The translations under genes were made by a program, and so were the position numbers. From SAR202 cluster bacterium (GTDB taxonomy: Bacteria; Chloroflexota; Dehalococcoidia; Lucifugimonadales; UBA6952): a stretch of DNA of 34,078 nucleotides. Positions 1 through 24,169 of the stretch are shown piece by piece (the stretch's first letter is position 1; the number at the start of each line of letters is the position of its first letter). The notes under the pieces are model-generated. The model was given only the letters and a program-made list of their open reading frames with translations, was not told the origin of the DNA and did not search any database. The stretch is taken from positions 1 to 34,078 of the forward strand of contig VFGE01000035.1 of assembly GCA_009392515.1 (NCBI GenBank), written 5' to 3'.

Positions 1-518
1 GTCATTTTTCTATAATTCATCGTTATCATCCACATTTATACTTCAATGGTAAATATATACGTTATACAGGTGCTATGTTAATAGAAAATGAAACAATGTG
101 GATGAGTGATGGCCCAGAGGAACGTTTAACAATGTCTAGTTCCGTTCGGTGGTGTCCAAAGAATGCAGATGTATTAATTGGAGGCTTAGGGTTAGGTATT
201 GTGCCACGATGGTTGGAACAAAAAGCTAATTCTATAACGATAGTTGAATTTTCAAGAGATGTAATTAATCTTGTTTATGATTATATTAAAACACCTAAGA
301 TGAAAATAATTCATGATGATATAAATAATTATTTAGATAAAACAGAAGAGAAATTTGATTTTGTATATATAGATACCTGGCCAGACTTAGATGCCAGCCG
401 ATTAGAAGAAATTATTTATCTGAAAAGATTATCAAAAAATGTTTTAAAAAACGAAAACAGTCGTGTAATTTGTTGGGGTGAAAATGTTGTCAGGAAGGCA
501 GCAACTCAGTCTAATTAG
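1..518 (+). CDS. Spermidine-synthase-like methyltransferase-fold protein, 5' end outside window
   Basis: The reading frame is open from base 3 to the stop at 516-518, with no stop upstream of the first internal ATG at 75. The true start therefore probably lies before the window and this is the C-terminal part. A Rossmann nucleotide-binding loop is visible (VLIGGLGLGIVPRWL), followed by an acidic strand end (TIVEFS) and a FDFVYIDTW strand. These are typical of the spermidine synthase/SAM methyltransferase fold. The residues that define true aminopropyltransferases cannot be judged from this fragment, so substrate is unknown. The last 8 bases overlap the convergent selenoprotein gene. An unrelated class I methyltransferase is the main alternative. 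Confidence 0.7.
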   Translation, partial: HFSIIHRYHPHLYFNGKYIRYTGAMLIENETMWMSDGPEERLTMSSSVRWCPKNADVLIGGLGLGIVPRWLEQKANSITIVEFSRDVINLVYDYIKTPKMKIIHDDINNYLDKTEEKFDFVYIDTWPDLDASRLEEIIYLKRLSKNVLKNENSRVICWGENVVRKAATQSN

Positions 519-1407
519 TGTTTTTGCGCTCTGATTGCCTAGCTCGTCGTATTTCTCCTGCTCGTGCAAGAATATCTCTATTAGATTCATTTACTTCCAT
601 ATAATTTTTTCGCCATTCATGAGTATGCCAAGTATAGGGTGTTTGTATAGTTGTTCTAGGAAACTTAGCTTCATCTATAAGTGTTAATGCCATTTTGGTA
701 GTTTCAATTTGCATTGCTGAGTCATATGGCAGTCCAACAGGATTACCCAGAGGAAAATCCGAAAATATAAATCTTGGGACCCCACATTGTTCTACTATGT
801 CTCTTGCTGATCCTATTATTACCGTAGGAATACCATTTTCTTCGAGATATCTTGCAACCAAACTCACGGTTTGGTGACAAACAGGTCACAGAGGAACTAA
901 GAGTGCAACATCTACTAAATCTTTTTGCATATAATCTAATATTTCAGGGGCCACATTTTGATTAGTTTTCCTTTGAGAATAATCGGTAGGAGCACCATAA
1001 AAATTCCTTGAAATTGACTTTATTACCTTTTCTTTTACAAGGGTTTTAAGATGGTCTAATGGGAAAAAACTTCCTAAGTCATGGGTATGGGTTGCTTTTT
1101 TATCCCATGATCTATCCATAGTGTATAGGGCGGGAGGTGTGGGAGACGTTGAGAATTTATAGCTTGACCCAATTTGTAATATGCCTGGATCAAAATCAAT
1201 GGATATATTTGGATTTGGTAAAGATGCAGTCGTGACAAGTCCAACATTACACTCTGATAAAGGTTTAGTTAGTTTTGTAAAAGGTACTTTTTCATTTACC
1301 GCCCATCGATATGGAATTTCATATCCTTGCGCTGCATAGAAATGTCGTGACTTATCAATATATGAAACAGCTAACCTATATGCGGGATTAAATTGCTCTT
1401 TGTTCAT
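511..1407 (-). CDS. GrdB/PrdB-like reductase, selenoprotein with in-frame UGA
   Basis: Two minus-strand ORFs (886-1407 and 511-867) are one gene interrupted by an in-frame TGA at 888-886. Read through as selenocysteine it gives 298 residues with Sec at about 174. The context is ALLVPL-U-PVCHQTVSLVARYL, giving a U-x-x-C-H motif like that of the Sec-containing subunit B of glycine/sarcosine/betaine reductase and D-proline reductase PrdB. The following segment (GIPTVIIGSARDIVEQCGVPR) matches the PrdB layout, including a second Cys. The upstream part carries an FYGAPTDYSQRKT segment and the downstream part an Arg-rich tail. A SECIS-like hairpin follows the UGA. Family members reduce amino-acid-derived C-N bonds using thioredoxin, but the substrate here is unknown, and no GrdA, GrdC or PrdA partner is nearby. 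The gene starts 4 bp after the amidohydrolase gene, suggesting one transcript. The alternative, a nonsense pseudogene, is unlikely because both halves are intact and a tRNA-Sec lies in the window. Confidence 0.88.
851..881 (-). promoter_or_regulatory. SECIS-like stem-loop for UGA recoding
   Basis: On the minus strand a 17-nt upper stem-loop CCAAACCGTGAGTTTGG (874-858) has six perfect pairs and loop CGUGA, which contains the G-U expected in bacterial SECIS loops. It extends with A875-U857, a C/U mismatch, then five more pairs (881-877 with 855-851, two of them G-U). Exactly 11 nt separate the UGA from the upper stem-loop, the spacing known for the minimal E. coli element. The hairpin lies inside the coding sequence, as bacterial SECIS elements do, and would be bound by SelB. 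Confidence 0.75.
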
Positions 1408-1411
1408 AGTA

Positions 1412-2380
1412 TTAATCTAACCCATATAGTTCTTTAATTTCAGGTACATCATAAAGTTTAAGTGCATTTATGGCATTTTTCCAACAGATTTTATCCAATA
1501 CTTCTTCTTTCCAAGGAAGTGAGAAAAAGAAATTAGTGTAGTTTGTTAGGTTTAATAAAGGATATGCGCTACCAAAAATAAACCTATCTGAAATTCCCCA
1601 AGAACTGTTTACTGCTTTAACCCAATCTTCTGTGCCTAACATAGTTAAATATGCATCAGGAGATACGTATATATTATCTCTTCTCATACTCGCTATAGTA
1701 ATAATTTCTCGTATATAAGGATAATGGCCATGCCCACAAATTATGGTAAGATCTGGGAAATCATGTGCTACTTGGTCAATGTATTTAGGATGGGCATAGT
1801 CGATATTCAATCCACCCAATGGTCCGGATGTTTGAGGACTAATTGCAATATCTAAATCAAGGCATTTTTGATATATAGGGTAAAGACGTGGATCTGCTAA
1901 ATTATCAGCATAATTTGGGCCTCTACCAGGCTCAATAAATACAACTTTAAATCCTAATTTTTTACAACGTTCAATTTCTTCTAATGGGTCATGAAAAACA
2001 CCCCAAGCATCAATTCCAGCACATGCTACAAACCTAGCAGGATTTTCTTTCTGGATTTGTGCCTGCTCATCATTAGAAGTTGTTCGTTCAGGGAATACGC
2101 TGTGTCCTAGAGTCATACCTTTATTCATTCCGGATACTGATACAGCTGTTGTGACACCTGCCTCATCAAGATCTCGAAAGAATGATTCTATAGAACCATC
2201 CTTAAATGCATTGATAGAATCATAAGCTCCACTGTGTTGGGTGCGCTGTCTGAAATAGTCTGATTGTGAAGCAGTTGTTAATCTACATCGCATATCAATA
2301 ATTTTTGGTCTTTCAGATTTAGGTAGCATATTTGTTCCACCACCCATATCTTGGAATGCTAAAGTATTTTCATTTACCAT
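1412..2380 (-). CDS. Amidohydrolase_2-fold protein lacking canonical metal ligands
   Basis: A 322-residue TIM-barrel protein of the amidohydrolase_2 (COG2159) type, shown by GFKVVFIEPGRGPNYADN, DPRLYPIYQKC, HDFPDLTIICGHGHYPYI and a C-terminal GSAYPLL. The usual N-terminal HxH is DMRCRLT and the usual GSDYP aspartate is alanine, so two metal sites are missing. A subfamily with FRVRPP-like and GSAYP motifs is known to me, so this looks like a conserved variant rather than decay. I chose the ATG at 2380 because AAGGTGG sits 7 nt upstream; a GTG at 2389 would add three residues. It lies immediately upstream of the selenoprotein gene and may act on the same substrate or be its partner (inference). 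Confidence 0.8.
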   Translation of the reverse strand: MVNENTLAFQDMGGGTNMLPKSERPKIIDMRCRLTTASQSDYFRQRTQHSGAYDSINAFKDGSIESFFRDLDEAGVTTAVSVSGMNKGMTLGHSVFPERTTSNDEQAQIQKENPARFVACAGIDAWGVFHDPLEEIERCKKLGFKVVFIEPGRGPNYADNLADPRLYPIYQKCLDLDIAISPQTSGPLGGLNIDYAHPKYIDQVAHDFPDLTIICGHGHYPYIREIITIASMRRDNIYVSPDAYLTMLGTEDWVKAVNSSWGISDRFIFGSAYPLLNLTNYTNFFFSLPWKEEVLDKICWKNAINALKLYDVPEIKELYGLD

Positions 2381-2492
2381 TTTCCCCACCTTGCCATATT
2401 TATGAATAAATTTATATTACAGTGATACAGAATCTAGGTACAAGCATAAAAGTCATTCTAATTTACGGGATAAATAAACCTCATATTCAATC

Positions 2493-6313: not shown

Positions 6314-7126
6314 TTGGGTGAGGTTTCTAATAATACTTTACAAGCTGTAATGTTTGATTATTTACAATCACAAAAAAGTGGAACTGTGGCTGAATCAGAG
6401 AATGCGATGGGTCTTCTTTTGAGATGGTTTGGTGAAGATAGGGATATTACTGAATTAAGTCCAGTCCAAATAGAAGAATACTGCTCTAGTATAAATGATA
6501 ATAATGTTGACTCTAGTGCAACTATGAAGAGTTTGAAAAAGTTTTTTTCAACATTATATAAGAATGAAATAATTACTTTAGATTTATCCAGATATATAAA
6601 AATCCGTAAAAGAAAAACAACAATTGCTTCTACTGGACAAGGTCATGAAGAACAATTTGATATGTTAACTCAGGAAGGCTGGAATAAACTAGAGCAAGAA
6701 GTAGAAGATTTGAGACTAAGACGTGAAGATATTGCAGAGGATATACGGAAAGCTGCTGCAACAGGTGATTTCAGTGAAAATGCTCCTTTGGATGCAGCAA
6801 GAGAAGCACAAGGGAAAAATGAAGGAAGAATTCGGGAAATAGAAGAGACTTTAAAAAAATCTCGAGTTATGGACTCTAAAAGTATTAAAAGAAGAGGTAA
6901 ATCAGCTGCATTTGTCGGTTCTACTATCGTTATAAAGAACAGGACTACTAATAAGCAAAATTCATATATGTTAGTAGAATCTAGTGAATCCAACCCTAAA
7001 GAAGGCAAATTATCGATTCAGTCTCCAATTGGAAGAGCTATATATGGTATGCCTGCAGGATCTGAGGTGGAAATTCAGCTTCCTAATGGAGAGGCTAACT
7101 TATTTTATTTATCTAGTATCAAATAA
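6314..7126 (+). CDS. GreA/GreB-type transcription factor with N-terminal integrase-like core-binding domain
   Basis: The 270 residues have two parts. Residues about 1-100 (FDYLQSQKSGT..., LLLRWFGEDRDITELSPVQIEEYC, MKSLKKFFSTLYKNEIIT) resemble the SAM-like core-binding domain of tyrosine recombinases. No catalytic recombinase domain follows. Residues about 115-270 are a full GreA: a coiled coil with the acidic tip GDFSENAPLDAAREAQ, then the FKBP-like C-terminal domain ending GSEVEIQLPNGEANLFYLSSI. GreA factors rescue backtracked RNA polymerase by stimulating transcript cleavage. The start is TTG, fixed by GGAGGG at 6300-6305. The next gene begins 9 bp downstream. I believe such fusions occur in Chloroflexota, but this needs a search. 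Confidence 0.85.
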   Translation: MGEVSNNTLQAVMFDYLQSQKSGTVAESENAMGLLLRWFGEDRDITELSPVQIEEYCSSINDNNVDSSATMKSLKKFFSTLYKNEIITLDLSRYIKIRKRKTTIASTGQGHEEQFDMLTQEGWNKLEQEVEDLRLRREDIAEDIRKAAATGDFSENAPLDAAREAQGKNEGRIREIEETLKKSRVMDSKSIKRRGKSAAFVGSTIVIKNRTTNKQNSYMLVESSESNPKEGKLSIQSPIGRAIYGMPAGSEVEIQLPNGEANLFYLSSIK

Positions 7127-15826: not shown

Positions 15827-17656
15827 TTAAACGTCAGTTCTCCAAACATGTTCTCTCTTAGGCCACATATACTGTTGTCCTAAAGGAACGGTAATGTTCT
15901 GGATTTCAGTATAGTATGAGCTTCGTCCATTTTGTACTCCGAGAGGAGCAGATGGCAGGTCAGCGAGAATAATATCTTCCAGTTCAAGTCCTCGAGCTTT
16001 TCGAGTTGCAGAATCTGGAGATGCTGCGAGTTCGAGATATTTAGCGTCAACAACTTCACTGCTGTATCCGAGCCAGTTTCTTGAACCACCTGTTAGGAAG
16101 TAACTTCCGAACATTTCTTCTGGAGTATTGGTTGTCTGGCAGAAGTAGTATGACCAAATCTCATAGTTCAAGTTTTGAGCTAATGGGAATAACTGAGATG
16201 CTTGCATCAAGTCAATAGTAACATCGATACCGATCTTAGCTAATTCACCAGCTACGTATTCACCCTGTCGAGCATATGCTGAAGTATCTCTTACTAACAT
16301 AGTGAGGGATAATCCATCAGGGAACTCTTGGGCAACAAGTTGCTTAGCTTGTTCTATCTCAGCTGCTTTAGCGTCGCCTTTAGCCCAACCTTCCATCTTT
16401 GCAACTTCACTTGGAGGTCGTCCCCAGGTAGTTTCATCAAGATAAACTGTTGGTGTCCATCGGTCTTCACCAAAGTGAACAACTTCAGCATAACCCCAAC
16501 GGTCGACTGCCAAGTTAACAGCTCTTCTGAGGTTATCGTTGTCAAATGGAGGCTTAGTAGCATTCATATTGACACCTTGTGGTCGACAAGTGGTTGTGAA
16601 ACCAATCCAGTCGATCTTACCCTCAGCTTTTGCCTTGTTATACAGATCATTATTGTCTGGTGAAGGCATAGTTCGGCTGACTTCAACCTGTCTGGTTAAG
16701 AAAGCTGACTGAGCAACTTCAGATGATCGAATCAACTGAATTTCCCATTCATCTAAGTATGGGAGACCAGCTCTGAAGTAGTCAGGATCTTTTTCATAAA
16801 TCCATGTGGAACCTCTTTCAAAGCTCTTGAGCTTATAAGGTCCTGAACCATAGGATCGTTCGTTTAACATTTCTCTTGTTGTACCGTCAGGCATAATACC
16901 TGAGAATCCAATTGCGAGAATATCAATAAGACCAGCGAATGGTTGAACGAGATGGAAACTTACTTGTTGTCCATCTGAACTCATACCCAAGTCATCACGA
17001 TCAATATCAACGAACTCTTTCATCCAACCTGAACGTGCTGATACCACACCATCAACGAGACCCATGATTTTTTCCATGCTGTACTCAACGTCTTTACCAG
17101 TCATTGTAGTACCGTCTCTAGGTCCGGCTATACCGTTAATATTGGAATGATACTTTACATTATCATGTAATGTGAAAGTCCAAGTTTTACCATCATCACT
17201 GATGGTCCACTCTTTAGCTGCGTCAGGTGCGATAACACCTGCGTCTGGACTCCATACCAAACTGCTGTACATTTTAGCGTTATGCTGAACGAATACAGAA
17301 GATGTGGCGTTATGGACGTCGAAACTGACAGGGTCTCTAGAACCTGTTGAAATTACTCTACCACCTGACTTAGGTTGAACACTAGGTTTAGGGGCAGGAG
17401 CAGCTTCTGTGGTTGCTTCTGGTTTTGCTGTTGCGGTTTCAGAACTGCTTGCTGTAGAAGCTGTAGAACTACTAGTAGAACTACTGCTACTTGTTGAAGC
17501 GGTACTGGTACTACTAGATGTAGAAGCTGTGCTTTCGGCTGCCGTAGAAGTTGTTTCTTCTTCGTCGTCACCACCACAAGCTACAGCTACTATCATAGAG
17601 ATAGCAACAACTGTGCCAAGCAACAATCTAGGCGTAAGCCAAGACTTATGTGACAT
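15827..17656 (-). CDS. ABC transporter substrate-binding lipoprotein, family 5 (copy A)
   Basis: A 609-residue lipoprotein. Signal peptide about 1-26 with lipobox IVAVACGG (Cys about 27), an acidic stretch DDEEETT, a long Ser/Thr/Ala linker (about 35-75), then an SBP_bac_5 (DppA/OppA-like) domain from VISTGSRDPVSFDVHN. A transporter of peptides or similar solutes would receive the ligand, but no permease or ATPase genes are in the window. The ribosome site AAGGAGGTGAT complements the 16S tail almost completely, and the gene looks more GC-rich than its neighbours, both suggesting high expression. From SVQPKSGG to the C-terminus it is identical to copy B apart from the last residue (Val here, Ala there). 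Confidence 0.94.
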   Translation of the reverse strand: MSHKSWLTPRLLLGTVVAISMIVAVACGGDDEEETTSTAAESTASTSSSTSTASTSSSSSTSSSTASTASSSETATAKPEATTEAAPAPKPSVQPKSGGRVISTGSRDPVSFDVHNATSSVFVQHNAKMYSSLVWSPDAGVIAPDAAKEWTISDDGKTWTFTLHDNVKYHSNINGIAGPRDGTTMTGKDVEYSMEKIMGLVDGVVSARSGWMKEFVDIDRDDLGMSSDGQQVSFHLVQPFAGLIDILAIGFSGIMPDGTTREMLNERSYGSGPYKLKSFERGSTWIYEKDPDYFRAGLPYLDEWEIQLIRSSEVAQSAFLTRQVEVSRTMPSPDNNDLYNKAKAEGKIDWIGFTTTCRPQGVNMNATKPPFDNDNLRRAVNLAVDRWGYAEVVHFGEDRWTPTVYLDETTWGRPPSEVAKMEGWAKGDAKAAEIEQAKQLVAQEFPDGLSLTMLVRDTSAYARQGEYVAGELAKIGIDVTIDLMQASQLFPLAQNLNYEIWSYYFCQTTNTPEEMFGSYFLTGGSRNWLGYSSEVVDAKYLELAASPDSATRKARGLELEDIILADLPSAPLGVQNGRSSYYTEIQNITVPLGQQYMWPKREHVWRTDV

Positions 17657-18072: not shown

Positions 18073-19896
18073 TTAAGCGTCAGTTCTCCAAACATGTTCT
18101 CTCTTAGGCCACATATACTGTTGTCCTAAAGGAACGGTAATGTTCTGGATTTCAGTATAGTATGAGCTTCGTCCATTTTGTACTCCGAGAGGAGCAGATG
18201 GCAGGTCAGCGAGAATAATATCTTCCAGTTCAAGTCCTCGAGCTTTTCGAGTTGCAGAATCTGGAGATGCTGCGAGTTCGAGATATTTAGCGTCAACAAC
18301 TTCACTGCTGTATCCGAGCCAGTTTCTTGAACCACCTGTTAGGAAGTAACTTCCGAACATTTCTTCTGGAGTATTGGTTGTCTGGCAGAAGTAGTATGAC
18401 CAAATCTCATAGTTCAAGTTTTGAGCTAATGGGAATAACTGAGATGCTTGCATCAAGTCAATAGTAACATCGATACCGATCTTAGCTAATTCACCAGCTA
18501 CGTATTCACCCTGTCGAGCATATGCTGAAGTATCTCTTACTAACATAGTGAGGGATAATCCATCAGGGAACTCTTGGGCAACAAGTTGCTTAGCTTGTTC
18601 TATCTCAGCTGCTTTAGCGTCGCCTTTAGCCCAACCTTCCATCTTTGCAACTTCACTTGGAGGTCGTCCCCAGGTAGTTTCATCAAGATAAACTGTTGGT
18701 GTCCATCGGTCTTCACCAAAGTGAACAACTTCAGCATAACCCCAACGGTCGACTGCCAAGTTAACAGCTCTTCTGAGGTTATCGTTGTCAAATGGAGGCT
18801 TAGTAGCATTCATATTGACACCTTGTGGTCGACAAGTGGTTGTGAAACCAATCCAGTCGATCTTACCCTCAGCTTTTGCCTTGTTATACAGATCATTATT
18901 GTCTGGTGAAGGCATAGTTCGGCTGACTTCAACCTGTCTGGTTAAGAAAGCTGACTGAGCAACTTCAGATGATCGAATCAACTGAATTTCCCATTCATCT
19001 AAGTATGGGAGACCAGCTCTGAAGTAGTCAGGATCTTTTTCATAAATCCATGTGGAACCTCTTTCAAAGCTCTTGAGCTTATAAGGTCCTGAACCATAGG
19101 ATCGTTCGTTTAACATTTCTCTTGTTGTACCGTCAGGCATAATACCTGAGAATCCAATTGCGAGAATATCAATAAGACCAGCGAATGGTTGAACGAGATG
19201 GAAACTTACTTGTTGTCCATCTGAACTCATACCCAAGTCATCACGATCAATATCAACGAACTCTTTCATCCAACCTGAACGTGCTGATACCACACCATCA
19301 ACGAGACCCATGATTTTTTCCATGCTGTACTCAACGTCTTTACCAGTCATTGTAGTACCGTCTCTAGGTCCGGCTATACCGTTAATATTGGAATGATACT
19401 TTACATTATCATGTAATGTGAAAGTCCAAGTTTTACCATCATCACTGATGGTCCACTCTTTAGCTGCGTCAGGTGCGATAACACCTGCGTCTGGACTCCA
19501 TACCAAACTGCTGTACATTTTAGCGTTATGCTGAACGAATACAGAAGATGTGGCGTTATGGACGTCGAAACTGACAGGGTCTCTAGAACCTGTTGAAATT
19601 ACTCTACCACCTGACTTAGGTTGAACACTAGGCTCAGCGGCAGGAGCAGCTTCTGTGGTTGCTTCTGGTTTAGCAGCTGCGGTTTCAGAACTACTTGCTG
19701 TAGAACTAGTTGTACTACTTGCTGTAGAAGTAGTTGAGCTACTTGTAGAAGCGGTGCTGGCGGTGCTTTCAGTAGATGAGGATGTAGAAGTAGTTTCTTC
19801 TTCATCGTCACCACCACAAGCTACAGCTACTATCATAGAGATAGCAACAACTGTGCCGAGCAGGAATCTAGGCGTAAGCCAAGACTTATGTGACAT
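18073..19896 (-). CDS. ABC transporter substrate-binding lipoprotein, family 5 (copy B)
   Basis: The tandem paralogue of 15827-17656: 607 residues with the same signal peptide and lipobox (VACGG) and the same SBP_bac_5 domain. The Ser/Thr linker differs in order and length (by two residues), and AAEP replaces APKP just after it. Downstream of the linker every stretch I compared is base-identical at an offset of 2246 bp, until the final codon. The ribosome binding site (GGAGGTGAT) is kept but the promoter region beyond it is unrelated to copy A, so the copies may respond to different signals. Function as in copy A: capture of peptides or similar solutes outside the membrane. The transport partners are not in the window. 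Confidence 0.94.
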   Translation of the reverse strand: MSHKSWLTPRFLLGTVVAISMIVAVACGGDDEEETTSTSSSTESTASTASTSSSTTSTASSTTSSTASSSETAAAKPEATTEAAPAAEPSVQPKSGGRVISTGSRDPVSFDVHNATSSVFVQHNAKMYSSLVWSPDAGVIAPDAAKEWTISDDGKTWTFTLHDNVKYHSNINGIAGPRDGTTMTGKDVEYSMEKIMGLVDGVVSARSGWMKEFVDIDRDDLGMSSDGQQVSFHLVQPFAGLIDILAIGFSGIMPDGTTREMLNERSYGSGPYKLKSFERGSTWIYEKDPDYFRAGLPYLDEWEIQLIRSSEVAQSAFLTRQVEVSRTMPSPDNNDLYNKAKAEGKIDWIGFTTTCRPQGVNMNATKPPFDNDNLRRAVNLAVDRWGYAEVVHFGEDRWTPTVYLDETTWGRPPSEVAKMEGWAKGDAKAAEIEQAKQLVAQEFPDGLSLTMLVRDTSAYARQGEYVAGELAKIGIDVTIDLMQASQLFPLAQNLNYEIWSYYFCQTTNTPEEMFGSYFLTGGSRNWLGYSSEVVDAKYLELAASPDSATRKARGLELEDIILADLPSAPLGVQNGRSSYYTEIQNITVPLGQQYMWPKREHVWRTDA

Positions 19897-23161: not shown

Positions 23162-23485
23162 ATGGCACACCCTGAACCAGTTACTGATGGTGATTTTAAA
23201 GAAAAAGTAATCGACTCAAGTACACCTGTACTTGTCGACTTCTGGGCTGATTGGTGTGGACCATGCAAGATGGTAGCACCAATTGTTGATGAACTTGCAG
23301 AAGAATTTGATGGAAAAGTTAAGTTTGCAAAGGTAGATGTTGATACCAATCCGCAAACTTCTCTTAGCTTTGGGATTCGTAGTATACCTTCCTTATTAGT
23401 TTTCAAAGATGGAAAGGTTGTTGATCAAGTTGTCGGTGCTGTACCGAAAGCTGTACTTAAGAAGCGTTTAGAAGAAGCTTTATAA
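23162..23485 (+). CDS. trxA: Thioredoxin
   Basis: A 107-residue, full-length cytoplasmic thioredoxin with the redox site WADWCGPCK (Cys at about 36 and 39), the buried Asp region VLVDFWA, and the cis-proline loop IRSIPSLLVF. It reduces protein disulfides and supplies electrons to reductases. AGGAG lies upstream of the ATG. The tRNA-Sec gene starts 25 bp after its stop on the same strand with no terminator between, so cotranscription is likely. Because classical glycine reductase takes electrons from thioredoxin, this product is a candidate donor for the selenoprotein at 511-1407 (inference). Confidence 0.96.
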   Translation: MAHPEPVTDGDFKEKVIDSSTPVLVDFWADWCGPCKMVAPIVDELAEEFDGKVKFAKVDVDTNPQTSLSFGIRSIPSLLVFKDGKVVDQVVGAVPKAVLKKRLEEAL

Positions 23486-23510: not shown

Positions 23511-23608
23511 GGGAGTGGATGGGGCCCGGTGGCTTCTGCGGACTTCAACTCCGTTGTCTTGACGGCTTCCCGTTGAGAGGTGGGTTCGACTCCCTCGCAC
23601 TCCCGCCA
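23511..23608 (+). tRNA. selC: tRNA-Sec (anticodon UCA)
   Basis: A 98-nt tRNA with encoded CCA. Features of bacterial tRNA-Sec are all present: the acceptor starts GGGAGTG and pairs with CACTCCC; a 6-bp D stem GGGGCC/GGCTTC closes a CGGT loop; the anticodon stem GCGGA/TCCGT encloses CTTCAAC with anticodon TCA; the long variable arm CTTGACGG/CCGTTGAG has an 8-bp stem; the T loop is TTCGACT and the discriminator is G. The eighth acceptor pair (G/G) and one T-stem pair (T/T) are mismatched. It decodes UGA as selenocysteine with SelB. An open reading frame runs through it but is not coding. Confidence 0.95.
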
Positions 23609-23638
23609 ATTTGTTCAGGCTCTAGAATTTGGAGAAGA

Positions 23639-24169
23639 ATGAAACCACTAAATGAACTCGGTCAAAAGATAAGTATTATTGGTACTAGTAATAGTGGGAA
23701 ATCCACTTTAGCACAGTATTTGGCGAAAAAATTAAAAGTTCCATGTTACCATTTGGATCAATTAGCATTTCATCCGAATACTAACTGGGTAAGACGTCCT
23801 AGTGAAGAGTTTATACAAGATCATAATAAGCTGTTAAGTGGTGAAAGTTGGATTATAGAAGGTAATTATAGTTCTTGCATGAAAGAAAGATTTGATAAAT
23901 CAGATTCTGTTATTTGGTTGGATTCTTCAGTTATATCATGTGTTTATCGCTATGTAGCAAGGGCAATTAAAAATGATTCAAGTCGTCCAGGACGTTTGGA
24001 TGGAGCAACAAAAGAATTCAATTTCGATATGATTACACATATACTTTTTACCTATCCGAAATTAAGAAAAAAGTATTCTGATTTGTTATTATCTGCTAAT
24101 GTGTCTCCGTTAATTATTAGTTCTATGAAAAAATTGAATAAGTATTACAAAAAATGGGAACTCTGTTAA
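23639..24169 (+). CDS. P-loop kinase, FlaR-like (adenylate-kinase-related)
   Basis: A 176-residue nucleotide-binding protein with Walker A IIGTSNSGKSTLAQ (about 13-26), then YHLDQLAFHPNTNW and SWIIEGNYSSCM. This order is typical of proteins annotated DNA topology modulation protein FlaR or adenylate-kinase-like. The actual substrate is unknown. The frame remains open upstream through the tRNA, but the ATG at 23639 with GGAG 4 nt before it is the real start. It follows tRNA-Sec by 30 bp and overlaps the next gene by one base (TAATG). A role in selenium metabolism is conceivable from position only. Confidence 0.8.
   Translation: MKPLNELGQKISIIGTSNSGKSTLAQYLAKKLKVPCYHLDQLAFHPNTNWVRRPSEEFIQDHNKLLSGESWIIEGNYSSCMKERFDKSDSVIWLDSSVISCVYRYVARAIKNDSSRPGRLDGATKEFNFDMITHILFTYPKLRKKYSDLLLSANVSPLIISSMKKLNKYYKKWELC

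Follow-up and report, generated by a model that had tools for sequence, protein, structure and literature searches.

A gene on the minus strand of a SAR202 cluster bacterium contig probably encodes a selenoprotein that is a stand-alone relative of PrdB and GrdB, and that may act as a selenocysteine (Sec)/Cys reductase in the breakdown of organic compounds. This is the best overall explanation, with a probability of roughly 0.7. Its firmest part is the selenoprotein itself: comparison of homologues makes it almost certain that the UGA at codon 174 is read as Sec, by means of a hairpin and of SelA, SelB, SelD and tRNA-Sec.

Standard gene calling in this stretch of 34,078 nucleotides (the window) gives two open reading frames (ORFs), one of 173 aa (1407..886, minus strand) and one of 118 aa (867..511, minus strand), which share one frame and are separated by a TGA at 888-886. 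If the TGA is translated as Sec, the product is a protein of 298 aa with the site LUPVCHQT, in which Sec is residue 174. The original prediction had joined the two ORFs through the TGA at a UxxCH site, and had expected gene callers to fragment the gene. Both points are borne out by the 298-codon frame and the two called ORFs. The prediction was also correct in its coordinates, in the motif and in the number of the Sec residue. The relevant features are as follows.

511..1407, minus strand: Sec-containing PrdB-like gene, 298 aa, with a TAG stop at 513-511
886..888, minus strand: TGA codon read as Sec174 of the UPVC motif, as judged by TGA/Cys conservation in homologues
854..878, minus strand: bacterial SECIS hairpin, with lower pairs 877-878/854-855, upper stem 869-875/857-863 and loop CGUGA at 864-868
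1412..2389, minus strand: Amidohydro_2 gene (PF04909), 4 bp upstream of the Sec gene
23511..23604, plus strand: tRNA-Sec gene with anticodon UCA, within the window (ARAGORN puts its end at 23608)

Decoding of the in-frame UGA

The 16 nearest homologues (47-90% identity) all carry TGA at the Sec174 codon, and the frame is open on both sides. They come from Dehalococcoidia, Acidimicrobiia, delta-type lineages (Syntrophales, Smithella, Desulfobacteraceae) and Gammaproteobacteria. A homologue is also present in 110 of 197 relatives of the host genome; among the matches listed in these relatives, 150/150 have the in-frame TGA at the Sec codon, and a few contain a further stop as well. Substitutions relative to the 90% identical homologue (L014, from another species of the genus) are mostly in the third codon position, with counts of 18/7/64 for the three positions before the TGA and 10/4/36 after it.

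The check suggested for residue 174, the presence of Sec or Cys in homologues, gave both. Four Gammaproteobacterial homologues of about 41% identity, drawn from 369 sampled genomes of the class to which one Gammaproteobacterial carrier belongs, have Cys exactly at the Sec174 position, in the motif NCP(V/I)CHQS. In a tree with a midpoint root only, the Cys forms cluster together (100/98), next to the Sec clade (100/97), and the wider relatives are all Sec. Since the Cys group sits among wider relatives that all have Sec, a Sec-to-Cys replacement is favoured and would be the simplest reading of the tree.

The predicted SECIS-like hairpin follows the UGA with pairs at 11-12/34-35 and 14-20/26-32, counted from the U of UGA, and the G and U of its CGUGA loop are loop positions 2-3. 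Folding of the single sequence shows nothing unusual (z -0.41), and the case for the hairpin is comparative. In a gap-free alignment of 34 sequences, 92.5% of the SECIS cells are paired (77.7 in shuffles), and 38 cells are double changes, as opposed to 10.2 in shuffles, with 0/500 shuffles as high. The covariation score is 0.411 compared to 0.141 for shuffled alignments, pairing drops to 26-37% on sliding by 1-3 columns, and the same stem is recovered unprompted by RNAalifold. The Thr-Val-Ser codons of the loop are fixed in the nearest clade (ACC 13/13, GTG 14/14, AGT 14/14), and most surrounding codons are variable. Covariation and the frozen loop codons thus support the hairpin. In the Cys homologues, a small control (n=4), the upper stem retains 4, 4, 4 and 6 of 7 pairs, versus 5-7 (mostly 6-7) in the Sec genes, and the loop is altered in three of the four; the hairpin appears largely decayed in these genes.

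The selA, selB and selD genes, on which the prediction depended, are all found in the host genome (1.55 Mb, 98% complete), and their products score above the cut-offs. The gene for the host SelD (L034, G000:C37:32659-33585) contains a single in-frame TGA, and SelD too is probably a selenoprotein. The tRNA-Sec gene immediately follows a thioredoxin gene (23162-23485). A mechanical ORF, 23519-24169, has its called start inside the tRNA-Sec gene, which probably means that it really begins further downstream.

Family, gene surroundings and possible chemistry

Kinship with GrdB and PrdB, also part of the original prediction, is supported by profile searches. The NCBIfam PrdB model (TIGR04483) matches residues 40-261 with E 5.3e-28 and 98.1 bits, short of its equivalog cut-off of 300. 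The GrdH, GrdF and GrdB models match with E 3e-10 to 7e-6 (GrdH 2.8e-10) at 25-40 bits, compared with cut-offs of 600-800, and the score for Pfam GRDB is just below the cut-off. The profile homology is significant and spans the UxxC site, here and in six relatives, as expected for members of the PrdB/GrdB superfamily. Other clades of the PrdB-like family reach 154-199 bits to PrdB, also below 300. Because they score higher, the clade of the 298-aa protein, which is marked by an invariant WDKKATHT block and also has an invariant DFPLGNP block, appears to be among the more divergent of the family. U/C174, P175, C177, R186 and E189 are invariant across 22 diverse members.

The host carries a second, distant Sec-containing PrdB-like gene (L067 7971-8948, minus strand, on contig G000:C39) of 29% identity, located beside an FAA_hydrolase gene; at 178 bits, this paralogue is closer to PrdB than the 298-aa protein. 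A further Sec-containing PrdB-like gene is found directly beside a SelO gene in a Gammaproteobacterial genome (L107 7285-9959, plus strand). No relative of the Sec protein was found in phage and viral collections.

The predicted structure is alpha/beta (pLDDT 83, pTM 0.85), and the model suggests a Rossmann-like fold with Sec174 between strand 167-171 and the start of helix 175-190. A Foldseek search of the PDB with this model gave no significant match (best E 0.025), and phmmer and hmmsearch found no relative among PDB sequences. VIA-align returned only common Rossmann/periplasmic-binding-like arrangements (Z <=8.6), and no function was drawn from them.

The upstream Amidohydro_2 gene is kin to BB4693 (PDB 3irs) and, weakly, to a lignin-biphenyl meta-cleavage hydrolase. 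Its order with the Sec gene is kept in L014, and the two are probably in the same operon. In Syntrophales the neighbours are genes for an enoyl-CoA hydratase, thiolase-like, acetate--CoA ligase-like and flavin proteins, in Gammaproteobacteria the neighbour is an alpha/beta hydrolase, and a zinc alcohol dehydrogenase is frequently found close to the distant Chloroflexota members. An FAA hydrolase lies beside one Cys homologue, as it does beside the C39 copy. A conserved neighbour was sought as a clue to the substrate, and none is common across phyla, the zinc alcohol dehydrogenase and the amidohydrolase each being clade-specific. What the neighbours have in common is a role in degrading organic compounds, though no single pathway emerges; since they come from degradation pathways, the Sec protein is placed in the catabolism of organic compounds.

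Elsewhere in the window, two SBP_bac_5 genes for extracellular solute-binding proteins (15827-17656 and 18073-19896, minus strand) stand in tandem and are nearly identical, and a further gene encodes a GreA-type elongation factor (6314-7126, plus strand) whose N-terminal extension, about 115 residues long, has no Pfam match.

The hairpin, together with the genome's own SelB, SelA, SelD and tRNA-Sec, almost certainly directs the ribosome to insert Sec at codon 174. In the proposed mechanism, the Sec174 selenolate would attack a small substrate at an electrophilic carbon, and a leaving group would be expelled. The resulting selenium adduct, or a selenenylsulfide, could then be resolved by Cys177 of the UPVC motif, and the Sec/Cys site would be recycled by a reductant of the thioredoxin type. 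The UGA decoding and the conserved UPxC pair are demonstrated by comparison between genomes. The chemistry (selenolate attack, resolution by Cys177 and recycling by thiols) we infer from the superfamily, and the balance tips slightly in its favour.

The protein might instead be a general thiol-redox selenoprotein that reduces disulfides or peroxides via UxxC and cleaves no substrate, its homology to PrdB reflecting a common scaffold only. UxxC is the common motif of thiol-redox selenoproteins (PMC2398784), and varied neighbours are to be expected for a general redox protein. However, most of the neighbours are catabolic despite their variety, the fold is predicted to be Rossmann-like and not thioredoxin-like, and the many invariant clade residues beyond UxxC, such as those of WDKKATHT and DFPLGNP, suggest a specific substrate pocket. 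This explanation is unlikely, although it deserves some weight.

The missing partner subunit

D-proline and glycine-type reductases need a GrdE/PrdA-type subunit (PMC10838667). A search for this family (PF09338) gave no match in the host genome (G000, 98% complete), none in the genomes that carry the 16 nearest homologues, and none in 96 of the 110 homologue-carrying relatives, several of the searched genomes being incomplete. As a positive control, the same search finds the family in 16 of the 197 relatives. Where a PF09338 gene directly adjoins a match, as it does in G090, G127 and G182, the match is weak (E about 1e-5 to 1e-6) and probably a real GrdB; in G004 the PF09338 gene is about 3 kb from a stronger match. 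Most of the strong homologues appear to be orphans without a partner, and none was found for the C39 paralogue either. Selenoprotein A (PF04723) had no match in the host genome, and the control genomes gave none either. The gene had been placed outside a recognisable glycine or proline reductase operon, and indeed no prd or grd operon lies near 511..1407 (minus strand). The selenoprotein, its kinship, the SECIS element and the lack of an operon all stand from the original prediction, while the reductase activity comes from analogy.

Given that PF09338 was not found in the host, in the 16 homologue genomes or in 96/110 relatives, the 298-aa protein does not appear, from sequence, to be a canonical D-proline or glycine reductase. 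That it is nevertheless a true subunit of a D-proline or a glycine/sarcosine/betaine reductase, with its partner encoded elsewhere or missing from the assembly, would agree with PrdB as the best NCBIfam match. Yet this is very improbable: the score is 98 bits and the cut-off 300, no such operon lies nearby, and the partner family, detectable in other relatives, was not found in G000 or the 16 nearest homologue genomes. Least probable of all, at practically nil, is a pseudogene, a sequencing error or two separate genes with the TGA as a real stop, which would fit the two called ORFs and the ordinary single-sequence hairpin energy, but which is already refuted by the homologues: the TGA and the protein identity on either side are kept in 16 genomes of several phyla, TGA is present in 150/150 among the matches listed, Cys can take its place, the hairpin covaries, and the genome has the full Sec machinery.

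For the stand-alone selenoprotein, the lack of a GrdE/PrdA-type partner makes it improbable that the substrate is an amine activated as a Schiff base. We tentatively consider a substrate that would lose something other than a simple amine (halide, quaternary amine, oxygen or sulfur) a better candidate than D-proline or glycine. More generally, one may speculate that, in marine and sediment bacteria, PrdB-like selenoenzymes of a widespread clade act alone, with no pyruvoyl subunit, and reductively cleave a non-amine bond (e.g., carbon-halogen, C-O or C-S) in the breakdown of organic matter. Against stand-alone action, there could be a partner too divergent for PF09338 to recognise, or its role could be filled by an unrelated protein; moreover, the C39 paralogue is nearer to PrdB yet also partnerless, and the precedent FarB retains FarE. 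Against a single pathway, the neighbours differ between phyla.

Comparison with known systems

Sec-containing 'PrdB' was reported in 2005 (42 genes, Sargasso Sea; PMC1088965) and in 2008 (235 genes in GOS, with 110 Cys homologues; PMC2398784), so the PrdB-like family is already known; it is among the most abundant marine selenoprotein families. The description of the gene as hidden therefore holds for 1407..511 (minus strand) in the raw sequence, but not for the family. What the present analysis adds is the orphan state without a partner, which is absent from the survey accounts as far as their available text goes; neither genome context nor a missing partner is reported there. A literature search on SAR202 with selenoproteins, selenocysteine or selenium found nothing relevant. 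D-proline reduction has been credited to the ocean 'PrdB'. If most carriers are partnerless, as in the genomes compared here, many of them would have been misassigned, and there would be a selenium-dependent reaction, common in marine and sediment bacteria, that is yet to be identified. The Sec-to-Cys swap in one clade would offer a natural comparison for the benefit of selenium.

PrdB of D-proline reductase (TIGR04483) resembles the 298-aa protein in its homology over residues 40-261, in having Sec in UxxC and in its similar length. The differences are the score (98 bits versus 300), the failure to find PrdA/GrdE (PF09338) in the host or in the 16 nearest homologue genomes, and the absence of a prd operon. 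GrdB, GrdF and GrdH of the glycine, sarcosine and betaine reductases share UxxC and a weaker homology in the Sec region; in contrast to them, the 298-aa protein is about 130 residues shorter than the models, scores far below the cut-offs, and has no GrdE found with it. FarB, a GrdB-like Sec protein, is proposed to cleave C-F, and its partner FarE is without pyruvoyl cysteines (PMC10838667). By this description, the fluoroacetate reductase candidate FarB/FarE is similar in its GrdB-like Sec protein, its proposed non-amine substrate and its lack of a pyruvoyl group, but it keeps a GrdE-like subunit, FarE. The marine 'PrdB' of the Sargasso Sea and GOS, as described in the available text of the surveys (PMC1088965, PMC2398784), is alike in having Sec and UxxC, in being named PrdB by homology, in its abundance in the surface ocean and in having some Cys homologues.
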